Source: Lysobacter silvisoli (GTDB taxonomy: Bacteria > Pseudomonadota > Gammaproteobacteria > Xanthomonadales > Xanthomonadaceae). From it: a DNA stretch of 64,000 nucleotides. A program made the translations under genes and the position numbers. Of the stretch, positions 50,348-59,231 are shown in pieces. Under the pieces are notes generated by a model. The model searched no databases and was not told the DNA's origin. It was given only the letters and a program-made list of their open reading frames with translations. The stretch is taken from positions 434,001 to 498,000 of the forward strand of contig NZ_QTSU01000002.1 in assembly GCF_003382365.1 (NCBI RefSeq), written 5' to 3'. Position 1 is the first letter of the stretch. Each line of letters starts with the position of its first letter.

Positions 50348-53300
50348 ATGAACGTAGCGCATGCAGTTCCGTTGCCGCTGTCCGTGGCCCAGCTCGGTCT
50401 CTGGTTCGGCCAGAAGATCGCCGGGCCCGGCGCCAATTTCAATCTGGCCGAAGCCATCGAGATCCGTGGCTGGATCGACCCGGGCCTGTTCCTGCGCGCG
50501 CTGCGCCAGGTCTCATCCGAGGCCGACGCGCTGCGCCTGCGCCTGGTCGACATCGACGGCGTGCCGCACCAGCAGGTGGTGGGCGAGCGCATCGACCATT
50601 TCCCCTACTTCGACCTCAGCGGCGAGCCCGATCCGGACGCCGCCGCCGAAGGCTGGATGGCCGACGAACTGTCCGCGCACGCCGAACTCGACGCCGGACC
50701 GCTGTGGGCCTGCGCGCTGTTCAAGCTCGGCCACGAGCGCCACGTCTGGTACCACCGCGCCCACCACATCGTGCTCGACGGTTACGGCGGCGGGCTGATC
50801 GCGCGCCGCGTGGCCGAGATCTATGCCGCCTATGCCGTCAACCGCGAGCCCGAGCCCGCGCGCTTCCCCAGCCTGGCCTCGCTGCTGGCCGGCGAAGACG
50901 AATACCGCGCCAGCGACCGCTGCCGGCGCGACCGCGAGTACTGGCACGCGCAGCTGGCCGAACTGCCGGAGCCGGCCACGCTGTCGCGCCGCAGCCGGCG
51001 CCACGGCACCGGCCTGCGCCGCAGCAGCGGCGTGCTCGACGGCATCGCCACGCGCCGCCTGCGCGCGCTGGGCAAGACCTATTCGGCCAGCCTGCCGCAG
51101 GTGCTGATCGCCTTGGTCGCGGCCTATTACTACCGCGCCACCGGCGCGTCCGATCTGGTCCTGGGCATGCCGGTCAGCGGCCGGGTCAACCATGCCCTGC
51201 GGCGCACGCCGGGCATGGTCGCCAATGCGGTGCTGCTGCGGCTGTCGCTGTCGCCGGCCATGCGCCTGAGCGAACTGATCGCGCAGACCTCGCGCGTGGT
51301 CGCGCAGGCGCTACGCCATCAGCGCTACCGCTACGAGGACCTGCGCCGCGAACTGGGCCTGGTCGGACAAGGTCAGCGCGTGGCCTGGCTGGGTGTGAAC
51401 ATCGAGCCCTTCGACTACGTGCTGGAGTTCGCCGGCGCCCTGGGCACGCCGCGCAACCTGTCCAACGGCACGGCCGAGGACCTGACCGTGTTCGTCTACG
51501 ACCGCGGCGACGACAACGGCCTGCGCTTCGACTTCGACGCCAACCCGGCCCTGTACGATGCCGACGAGCTCGACGCCCACCGCCGCCGGCTGGAACGCCT
51601 GCTCGCAGCCGCGCTGTCCGACCCGTCGACGGCGCTGGGCGACATCGACCTGCTCGAGCGCGAAGAGCGCGATCGTCTGCTGCTGCAATGGAACGACACT
51701 GCCGCGCCGGTGCAGGCCGCCACCCTGCCCGCGCGCTTCGCCGAACAGGCCGCGCGCAGCCCCGATGCCACCGCGGTGCGCTGCGACGGCCGCCGACTGA
51801 GCTACCGCGAGCTGTTGCTGCGCAGCCAGCATCAGGCGCAGCGCCTGGTCGAGCGCGGGGTGACGCCCGGCCGCATCGTCGCCATGGCGCTGCCGCGCGA
51901 CGAGCGCCTGCTCACCGCCATGCTCGCCATCGGCTACGCCGGCGCGGCCTATCTGCCGCTGGACCCGGACGCGCCCGACGAACGCCTGGCCGCGATGCTC
52001 AACGACGCGCGTCCGGCGCTGCTGCTGACCACGCCGGAACTGGCGCCGCGCCTGTCGCGCCTGGGCGTGACCGCGGCCACCATGAACCTGTGCGGCCCCA
52101 GCGCGACGCCGCTGCCGCTGGACCGCTCCACACCGGAAGGCGGCGCCTACGTGCTCTACACCTCCGGCTCCACCGGCCTGCCCAAGGGCGTGGAGGTCAG
52201 CCACCGCAATCTGGACAACCTGCTAGAAGCGATGCGGCGCCAGCTCTCGCCCCACGCCGGCGACCGCTTCCTGGCGGTGACCACGGCGGTGTTCGACGTG
52301 GCCGCGCTGGAACTGTTCCTGCCGCTGGTGGTGGGCGCGCAGACGGTGATCGCCGCGGCGGACGTGGTCCGCGACCCGCCGCGCCTGGCCGAGCTGATCC
52401 GCGAGCACCGCATCGGCTACGTGCAGGCCACGCCGTCGCTGTGGCGCATGTTGCTGGCCAACGGCGACACCGATCTGTCCGGCGTGCACGCATTGGCCGC
52501 GGGCGAAGCGCTCAGCGCCGAGCTCGCGCAGCGCCTGGCGCGCCTGGCCGACAAGGTCAGCAATCTCTACGGCCCCACCGAAACCACGGTCTATTCGACG
52601 GCGATCCAACTGACGCCAGCGGACCTGGCTGCGCCGCCGATCGGCCGCCCGCTGCTCAACACCCGACTGTACGTGCTCGACAGCGCCGGCGGCCTGATGC
52701 CCGCCGGTTGCGCCGGCGAGCTCTACATCGGCGGCGCGGGCGTGGCCAAGGGCTATCTCAACCGGCCCGAACTCACCGCGCAGCGCTTCCTGCCGGACCC
52801 CTTCGACCCGCGCGGCGGCCGCATGTACCGCACCGGCGACCGGGTGCGCTGGCGCGAAGACGGCGTGCTCGAATACCTGGGCCGCGGCGATCAGCAACTG
52901 AAGGTGCGCGGCAACCGGGTCGAGCCCGGCGAAATCGAGAGCCAGCTGATGCGCCACGCCGACGTGGCCGAAGCGGCGGTGGTCGCCGAAACCGCCGTCG
53001 GCGAAGGCGGCCTGCGCCTGATCGCCTACGTGGTGCCGGCCGCGGGCGCGGCCCTGCAGACCGATGCGCTGCGCCGCTATCTGGCGCGCAAGCTGCCCGA
53101 CTACATGGTGCCCGCCGCGCTGGTGCCGCTGGACGCGCTGCCGCTGACGGCCAGCGGCAAGCTCGACCGCAAGGCGCTGCCGGCGCCCGAGCGCGGCGAC
53201 CGCGCCGGATTTGCGCCGCCGCGCAACGAACTCGAACGCCAGCTCGCGGCGATGTGGGCCGAGCTGCTGGCGCTGCCGCAGGTGAGCATCCACGACAGTT

Positions 53301-57939: not shown

Positions 57940-59231
57940 GCCGCAGGCTGTCGACCATCGAACACCTGATCGACGGCAGCATCGTCTACGCGATCCGGAT
58001 CGAAGGCCGCATCGACGAAGCGCGCCTGCGCCTGGCCCTGTCGCGCGTGCAGGCCAAGCACCCGGCGCTGCGCGCGACCCTGCGCAGCCAACGCGGCGGC
58101 CTGCACTACGTGGACGACGGCGCCGGCGCGGTGCCGCTGCGCATCCAGCCCTTGCGCGGCCGCGACGATGCGCGCGAGGAGGCCCAACGCGAACTGCTGC
58201 GGCCCTACCCCGAAGGCCAGCCGCAGCTGCGCGTGGTCTGGCTGCGCGGGATCGAGCGCAGCGAGTTGTTGTTCGTCGCCTCGCACCGCATCTGCGACGG
58301 CATGAGCCTGCTGATCGTGGCGCGCGAGACCCTGCGCGCACTGTACGACGACGCACCGCTGACGCCGTATTCGCCGATCAGCGCGGCCGACATCGTCGGC
58401 GACTACCGGCCCGCGCATCCGTGGCGGCGGCGCTGGCTGGCGCGCGCGATCGGCCTGCTGCTGCGGCTGCTGCCGCCGTTGGCGCCACCGCAGAACCGCG
58501 AACACCACCTGGAATGGAACGCCGGCGCGGTGCTGTCCAGCGCCCTGCGCCTGCGTTGCAAGCGCGAAGGCGTGTCGGTGCATGCGGCCCTGCTGGTGGC
58601 GCTGGACCGCGCGCTGCTGGCCGCATTGGGGCGCGACAGCCTGCCGGCCTGGATCGAAAGCCCCATGGACGGCCGCCGCGGCCGCATCGCCGCGCTCGCC
58701 GACGACCGCCTGTTCTACGGCGGCGGTGGACTCAAGTACCGCACCGGCGAGTCGCCCGAAACCGACTACTGGGACCAGGTGCGCGCCGCGCACCGTTCGT
58801 TGCAGGAACAGATCGAGCGCGAAACCAGCGAAATCCCCAGCCGCTACCACTTCTGCGAACTGATCCGCCCGCCCGCACCCTCGCAACTCAACGCGCTGGT
58901 GCGCCTGGGCAACTCGCTGGGCCTCAACGGCAGCTGGAACCGCTTCACCTTGTCCAACCTGGGCGCGCTGGAATTGCTGGACGATCAAGCGCCGCTGCGG
59001 CTGGACGATTTCCGCCTGTACGTGCACTCGCGCACGGTGCGCGCGCTGGGCCTGATCGTGTACGCGCTGCACGGGCAGCTGCGCTTCTACCTGATGGCCG
59101 ACGAGCACTGCCTGAACCCCGACCGCTTGCTGGCCCTGCGCGAAGCGCTGATGGCCGAACTGCGCGAGCAGCTGGGGCAGACCGAGCGCGTGGCGCCGAT
59201 GCCGGCGGAAGCGCCGGCCTTGGTCGGCTGA
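57936..59231 (+). CDS. Second stand-alone condensation-type acyltransferase
   Basis: The 431-residue protein is a paralogue of the 55646-56968 acyltransferase, starting MSRRLSTIEHLIDGSIVYAI. The catalytic segment reads SHRICDG at 116-122: the second (catalytic) His and the DG are kept, but the first His of HHxxxDG is Ser. A C-terminal FTLSNLGALELLDDQAPLRL segment parallels its sister. It should transfer an acyl group too, perhaps to another position. It is the last gene in the coupled string. A gap of 52 bases then precedes the glutathione transferase gene. Confidence 0.87.
   Translation: MSRRLSTIEHLIDGSIVYAIRIEGRIDEARLRLALSRVQAKHPALRATLRSQRGGLHYVDDGAGAVPLRIQPLRGRDDAREEAQRELLRPYPEGQPQLRVVWLRGIERSELLFVASHRICDGMSLLIVARETLRALYDDAPLTPYSPISAADIVGDYRPAHPWRRRWLARAIGLLLRLLPPLAPPQNREHHLEWNAGAVLSSALRLRCKREGVSVHAALLVALDRALLAALGRDSLPAWIESPMDGRRGRIAALADDRLFYGGGGLKYRTGESPETDYWDQVRAAHRSLQEQIERETSEIPSRYHFCELIRPPAPSQLNALVRLGNSLGLNGSWNRFTLSNLGALELLDDQAPLRLDDFRLYVHSRTVRALGLIVYALHGQLRFYLMADEHCLNPDRLLALREALMAELREQLGQTERVAPMPAEAPALVG

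Follow-up and report, generated by a model that had tools for sequence, protein, structure and literature searches.

What does a short non-ribosomal peptide synthetase (NRPS) make when it is encoded together with two glycosyltransferases and two free-standing condensation-fold proteins? This question is raised by a five-gene locus of Lysobacter silvisoli at 50348-59231, on the plus strand, of the stretch of DNA analysed here (the window; 64,000 nucleotides of contig NZ_QTSU01000002.1, positions 434,001 to 498,000, assembly GCF_003382365.1), which is located in a 4.54-Mb genome. Our data suggest, as a rather probable reading, that the operon makes an acylated, diglycosylated lipo-glycine. The genes, called A to E in their order, code for a single-module NRPS with condensation, adenylation, carrier (T) and thioesterase (TE) domains (C-A-T-TE; gene A, 50348-54337, 1329 amino acids, assigned from its translation, Pfam, pocket code and orthologues), a GT-B glycosyltransferase of the GT28/UGT-like kind (gene B, 54330-55649, 439 amino acids, motif HHGGAGT, from Pfam and its PDB match), a free-standing condensation-fold protein (gene C, 55646-56968, 440 amino acids, CHHAICDG), an RhlC-like GT2 glycosyltransferase (gene D, 56965-57939, 324 amino acids, DQDS) and a second free-standing condensation-fold protein (gene E, 57936-59231, 431 amino acids, SHRICDG). 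Neighbouring genes overlap by 8 bp (A/B) or 4 bp (B/C, C/D and D/E), just as a first-pass annotation of this DNA had described, and the overlaps bear out its view of the locus as one coupled unit; the five genes are translationally coupled. Pfam likewise confirms the single-module C-A-T-TE architecture that it gave for A, and the two glycosyltransferases and two stand-alone condensation-type proteins that it listed are present, with acyl transfer as a predicted role for C and E. In a scan for promoters and terminators, no site resembled a promoter and terminators were not in excess.

The arrangement recurs in other genomes. An earlier scan of genome contigs with a single protein as the query found nothing, and 43 loci were then found by one scan of genome contigs with an alignment of C, which used one eight-residue pattern around HHxxCDG and missed C-like proteins with other letters there. 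The complete set, ordered A to E on a single strand, is present in 12 of the 43 loci, namely those of Lysobacter cf310, Root76 and Root916, L. chinensis, Luteimonas aquatica and L. panaciterrae, and six Dyella loci (tabacisoli, silvatica, subtropica, SG609, marensis and OK004). Partial sets are found in L. maris (C-D-E, at a contig edge), in L. antibioticus HS124 (B-C-D-E), in genome G141, where A-B lies on a contig other than that of C-D-E, and in five further Lysobacter loci with C-D only; the remaining 24 loci hold only C-like proteins, save L063, which also has a distant GT-B, and L099, which has a weak match to an NRPS. When start codons are picked by a script, C and D overlap by 4 bp in 16 of 20 loci, A and B by 4 or 8 bp in nine of 13 full operons (the other four have gaps of 5-24 bp), B and C in 9/13 and D and E in 7/13. 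Ratios of non-synonymous to synonymous substitution (dN/dS, by NG86) are below 1 for each gene, at 0.27-0.53 between the window and three Lysobacter loci and 0.06-0.21 in two closer pairs. The same order in 12 of 43 loci, together with dN/dS below 1 for every gene, therefore indicates that the five-gene arrangement is not due to chance.

Gene A is where the choice of amino acid and of acyl chain would be made. It matches Condensation, AMP-binding, PP-binding and Thioesterase in Pfam, with a starter-type condensation domain (50372-51682, Pfam residues 9-445, motif HHIVLDG), an adenylation domain (AMP-binding and AMP-binding_C, 51737-53161, residues 464-938), a carrier domain (53240-53431, residues 965-1028, GGDSL) and a thioesterase domain (53519-54217, residues 1058-1290, GRSLGG). 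In the PDB ranking the condensation domain is nearest to RzmA-Cs (298 bits) and CDA-C1 (225 bits), ahead of ObiF1 (204), EntF (151) and VibH (116), with the condensation domains of DhbF, Txo, TycC and LgrA following at 107 to 45 bits; 7C1H and 7C1K are RzmA-Cs entries (PMC7804268). By this ranking, rather than by a tree of condensation domains, the domain is classed as the lipid-starter type, which supports the earlier proposal that the NRPS acylates one amino acid. The same ranking bears on whether A is a catecholate siderophore synthetase of the EntF/MxcG kind, for the highest-scoring NCBIfam families of the full-length protein are MxcG (778 bits) and EntF (698 bits). These scores fall far under the cut-offs of 2300 and 2400, the condensation domain favours RzmA-Cs over EntF, and by Pfam, in a search confined to the locus, there is no catechol or transport gene among the five, so that a siderophore is a highly improbable product. 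Three ACPS-family matches are present in the genome, all outside the window, and no phosphopantetheinyl transferase (PPTase) gene adjoins the locus.

The adenylation pocket of A appears glycine-like rather than serine-like. Compared with the glycine code DILQLGLIWK and the serine code, the pocket codes of nine further full operons agree with the glycine code at 7-9 of ten positions and those of the window and the three loci closest to it at 6/10, while the A+B pairs that lie apart from C-D give four codes at 10/10 and three at 7/10 (pair row L143, from G092, is cut at 61 amino acids by a stop, so that no code can be read). EntF, the serine control in the same alignment, agrees with the serine code at 9/10, its last variable letter coming from the wrong column since the column of pocket residue 331 is split by a gap, and the 13 operons agree with it at only 2-5/10. 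Among PDB chains that match the adenylation domain in one stretch only, 5u89 is the best; it is titled DhbF, an enzyme whose first module is glycine-specific; LgrA stands above DhbF in some rankings because two adenylation domains are summed, and it was not used as evidence for glycine. From the pocket, we predict that A activates glycine, or possibly alanine in the subgroup to which the window belongs; the Alcanivorax lipid, too, has reported alanine congeners (PMC10684412). The first-pass annotation had drawn a parallel with SwrW and serrawettin, in which case the product would be a serine lipo-lactone that is then glycosylated. SwrW has the same C-A-T-TE architecture, and the starter-type condensation domain would fit, yet the parallel is not supported for the amino acid: with a glycine-like pocket, a lactone of that type would be expected to lack its serine hydroxyl, and with serine codes at no more than 5/10 against 9/10 in the control we regard this product as very unlikely.

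The two glycosyltransferases are of different kinds. B matches EryCIII-like_C, Glyco_transf_28 and UDPGT in Pfam, and among solved structures it is closest to the sterol 3-beta-glucosyltransferase 5xvm (E 1e-63), with rhamnosyltransferases at E 2e-5 and weaker in the same search. B had been likened to RhlB, and here the parallel is a loose one: it shares 28% identity over 367 amino acids with the Burkholderia glumae GT-B that we take as RhlB (rhl names for B. glumae genes were assigned from gene order), and is by sequence only distantly RhlB-like, with glucose as the better guess for its donor. D is by sequence an RhlC-like GT2 enzyme, matching Glycos_transf_2 under its Pfam cut-off and the NCBIfam rhamnosyltransferase family TIGR01556 at E 7e-44, and sharing 36.7% identity with the B. 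glumae GT2, 35.4% with a Pseudomonas aeruginosa rhamnosyltransferase and 40.7% with a gene of B. cenocepacia. The last was the best of 13 plasmid records found with D (Burkholderia, Rhizobium, Pseudomonas and Acidithiobacillus), and no match to the other four genes was found within 17 kb in that record. The rhamnose-pathway enzyme RmlC is encoded in the L. silvisoli genome (family match).

The roles of C and E are the hardest to assign. C matches Condensation and PapA_C in Pfam (PapA_C 32.9 bits, cut-off 30), and E falls just below the Condensation cut-off (28.8 bits, cut-off 30.6) and below that of PapA_C (17.8 bits, cut-off 30); PapA5 is the best NCBIfam family for both, at 37.7 bits for C and 25.0 for E against a cut-off of 396. 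HHxxCDG is kept in the nine C rows from the whole-protein search, and also in all 27 C rows of a larger set, a circular count since all but the window were found via that motif. AlphaFold models of both proteins (pLDDT 89.7 for C, 83.3 for E) are condensation folds. In a tree of 41 rows (26 of C type, including seven from Bacteroidota, and 15 of E), 19 C rows form one group (support 100/99) and the 15 E rows another (100/100), so that C and E appear to be old relatives and not a recent duplication; L075, L081, the second copies in L076 and L077, and L086-L102 were left out of the tree. Foldseek places the same structure first for both models, 8s6l, an entry titled AzeD dehydratase, from P. aeruginosa (TM 0.75; 28% identity to C, 21% to E). 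Both sequence profiles, too, have their best PDB match in it, and the dehydrating condensation domain of AmbE (7r9x) ranks second for C and fifth for E. One or both proteins may thus be condensation-fold dehydratases that create a double bond in the hydroxyacyl or the aminoacyl moiety. We consider this improbable: glycine has no beta-hydroxyl to eliminate, the PapA5 acyltransferase is itself among the structure matches (rank 9 for C and rank 4 for E; 18% and 16% identity) and is the best NCBIfam family, though far under its cut-off, and the neighbours at other loci are glycosyltransferases. No paper on PDB entry 8S6L was found in the open-access literature.

Genomic context favours acyl transfer. 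A second locus in Dyella silvatica combines a GT-B with a C protein and lacks A, D and E; in Chitinophaga rupis, polyketide synthase (PKS)-type genes (KS, AT and KR domains) share a locus with two GT-B and two C-like genes. C-like genes are thus found beside glycosyltransferases without this NRPS, as would be expected of acyltransferases in glycolipid assembly. C homologues stand in two or three tandem copies in the Chitinophaga loci L074, L076 and L077, and those of L074 adjoin PKS-type genes and two UDPGT/EryCIII-like GT-B genes, which by its gene families probably makes L074 another acylated glycolipid locus. Distant C-like condensation proteins (21-27% identity) were also found at L089, L091, L092, L094-L097, L101 and L102, which lie in metagenome bins labelled Heimdallarchaeota, Lokiarchaeia or Lokiarchaeota.

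Co-occurrence shows which genes travel together. Among 149 genomes from the window's family, strong B (>500 bits) is present in 15, strong C (>250 bits) in nine and strong D (>550 bits) in nine, with weaker matches to D in two further genomes (140-145 bits). Strong C and strong D occur in the identical nine genomes, all within the 15 with strong B, and an A orthologue (at least 1140 bits) is present in every one of those 15; C and D are therefore always accompanied by strong A and B (9/9), and E is present in six of the nine. In six genomes (G017, G043, G064, G092, G118 and G140, five of them read in detail) A adjoins B with no strong C or D. These counts are not independent, because of shared descent, and suggest that A and B are the core, with C and D, then E, as additions. 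A class-wide search for the GT-B gave three outside matches, none with an NRPS match beside it. Two of the genes found are broken, the GT-B gene of L065 (L065:6416-7571, a Dyella silvatica draft), which is split over two frames so that its motif was not seen, and the NRPS of a pair-only genome (G092:C24:530-4030), which carries two stops; both are draft errors or decay.

The same counts bear on a further alternative, in which C and E are chain builders that ester-link several 3-hydroxyacyl units, doing the work of RhlA or the tetramer step of Alcanivorax, and the sugars stay unacylated. In the Alcanivorax borkumensis product, four 3-hydroxy acids are indeed joined by ester bonds, and aglycones with three and with four units have been seen (PMC10684412); moreover, the B. 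glumae alpha/beta hydrolase that we take as RhlA is unmatched in the window's genome, in a search without a positive control. A rhamnolipid-type hydroxyalkanoyloxyalkanoic acid pathway was rejected on that same search. Against chain building, however, six of the 15 genomes with strong B have A and B but neither strong C nor strong D, C-like proteins are encoded next to glycosyltransferases also in loci without this NRPS, and the available text of PMC3849588 names no genes of the C/E type for the Xanthomonas and Alcanivorax pairs, so that we give it only a small, though real, share of the probability.

Taking acyl transfer by C and E as the preferred reading, the pathway can be set out in four steps of decreasing firmness. 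In the first, which is strongly predicted, the starter condensation domain would join an acyl group, probably 3-hydroxyacyl, to T-bound glycine (or a similar small amino acid), and the TE would free the acyl-amino acid from A. In the second, predicted step, B would add a hexose, probably glucose, at the hydroxyl group left free on the hydroxyacyl chain; the result would be a glycosyl-hydroxyacyl-glycine like the glycine-glucolipid of Alcanivorax. We then infer that D would add a second sugar, possibly rhamnose, and that the PapA-like C and E would move further acyl chains onto the sugars or the hydroxyacyl chain. The example of A. borkumensis makes a glycolipid bound to the envelope the likelier form of the product, rather than a lactone surfactant that is secreted freely. 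A penicillin amidase gene (PF01804) lies between B and C in three of the 12 full operons (L064 and L065 from Dyella, and L068), with a match of E 1e-146 to 1e-148 as read in L064, L065 and L042:11384-13657 (the same place as L068). Penicillin amidases cut N-acyl amides, and the presence of one in the operon thus fits an N-acyl amino acid in the pathway. Going further, and with less than even confidence, we suggest that the envelope lipid made by the locus would form a new Gram-negative class: a hydroxyacyl glycolipid capped with glycine and bearing two sugars, the hydroxyls of which are esterified by two dedicated condensation-fold acyltransferases. It would be a counterpart in Lysobacter, Luteimonas and Dyella of the acylated glycolipids made in mycobacteria with PapA enzymes, with the amidase of the three relatives trimming or recycling the N-acyl-glycine bond.

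Several observations weigh against the lipo-glycine as proposed. The window's own pocket code, DVLQLALVYK, agrees with the glycine code at only 6/10 and with the serine code at 5/10. The core pair is not uniform, since the NRPS condensation domain of four pair-only loci (L136, L140, L141 and L142) has lost the first His of HHxxxDG (SHxxxDG or NHxxxDG); these keep the second His and DG, as E does, with a pocket code of 10/10 to glycine, and the condensation domain of the full operons keeps both His. All 15 E proteins have likewise lost the first His and kept the second His and DG, and acyl transfer by C and E is not assured, as their nearest solved structure is titled AzeD dehydratase. D scores 150.1 bits against the TIGR01556 cut-off of 200.55, so that its donor sugar may or may not be rhamnose. 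The genes are also not always together: A is on another contig in genome G090, and in G062, G116 and G138 A-B is at one place and C-D at another. The short NRPS may function only where a gene of the XaPPTase type is retained (PMC3849588, in the part available), and there is no five-gene locus with a known product.

Two further features of the window lie outside the five genes. A glutathione-S-transferase-like gene (Pfam/NCBIfam; 59284-59958, plus strand) begins 52 bp downstream of E; among the loci scanned it is present only at the three closest Lysobacter loci, and it is probably outside the pathway. At 20001-22000 the GC content falls to 0.51, against 0.65-0.76 in the rest of the window, and three minus-strand open reading frames there have no Pfam family except a weak helix-turn-helix; this is possibly a small acquired island.

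Among known systems, that of the rhamnolipids (rhlA-rhlB-rhlC) shares with the window locus a GT-B and an RhlC-like GT2 encoded together, but the window locus has an NRPS, RhlA is unmatched (in the search without a control) and B has only 28% identity to the B. glumae GT-B. Mycobacterial glycopeptidolipids are made by an NRPS, glycosyltransferases and Pap acyltransferases, and condensation-fold acyltransferases beside glycosyltransferases and an NRPS would be common to both; the window locus differs in being Gram-negative and single-module, and in its low identity to PapA5. The Rouxiella glucoselipid operon, which consists of GNAT, PlsC-like and HAD genes, is unrelated. The closest likeness is to short C-A-PCP-TE (PCP, peptidyl carrier protein) NRPS genes that overlap a glycosyltransferase by 4 or 8 bp, described in 2013 for Xanthomonas albilineans, with similar NRPS and glycosyltransferase genes in other Xanthomonas and in A. 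borkumensis (PMC3849588). The pairs are XALc_0364/0365 and XALc_1145/1144, and ABO_1784/1783 with the PPTase ABO_1782 in A. borkumensis SK2; the contiguous PPTase gene is particular to Alcanivorax and is not reported as adjacent in Xanthomonas in the text available (PMC3849588). These short enzymes have starter condensation domains, with a glycine signature in XALc_0364 and none in XALc_1145, and the predicted product was an amino acid (Gly) linked to a beta-hydroxy acid and a sugar, although the word 'glucolipid' is absent from the available text (PMC3849588). The pair thus shares with the window locus one C-A-PCP-TE module, a starter condensation domain and a glycosyltransferase overlap of 4 or 8 bp, and differs in that no second glycosyltransferase or free-standing condensation protein is mentioned in that text; for A. 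borkumensis the likeness rests on the published description (PMC3849588). The first-pass annotation knew of no described cluster with this order. That view is not supported for the NRPS and glycosyltransferase pair, which has been in print since 2013; the five-gene order was not found in the open-access literature among the matches listed, which is not proof of absence. The locus is therefore less novel than first thought, and it is real, conserved and chemically interpretable.

The product expected of such a pair is itself known. The glycine-glucolipid of A. borkumensis is glucose-(3-hydroxyacyl)4-glycine (PMC10710537, PMC10684412); its pathway was called unelucidated in 2023 (PMC10710537), and the RhlB-like glycosyltransferase ABO_1783 was named as a potential contributor (PMC10710537, PMC10684412, in the parts available). 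It shares with the window locus a predicted core of glycine, hydroxyacyl chain and sugar, but has one sugar, whereas the window locus, known from its genes alone, has a second glycosyltransferase and two condensation-fold proteins. Within Lysobacter, a single-module glycine NRPS, with 25 occurrences, was the most frequent of the NRPS clusters that lack a characterised product in the genomes examined (PMC11451712, a 2024 preprint); it is probably of the same family as A, a match that we infer, as no neighbour genes are named in the text available. The natural series of A+B, A+B and C+D apart, A-B-C-D-E, and the operon with an amidase lets each added gene be matched to a chemical step, and the free-standing condensation proteins would offer a tractable Gram-negative model of glycolipid acylation. 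Taken together, the Xanthomonas, Alcanivorax and Lysobacter observations define a class of product that can be tested and point to A+B as the smallest gene set. As the pair is in print and the glycine-glucolipid is known, the window locus can thus be placed as an enlarged member of that kind, in which the NRPS and glycosyltransferase pair is joined by three further genes whose products would probably supply a second sugar and acyl chains.

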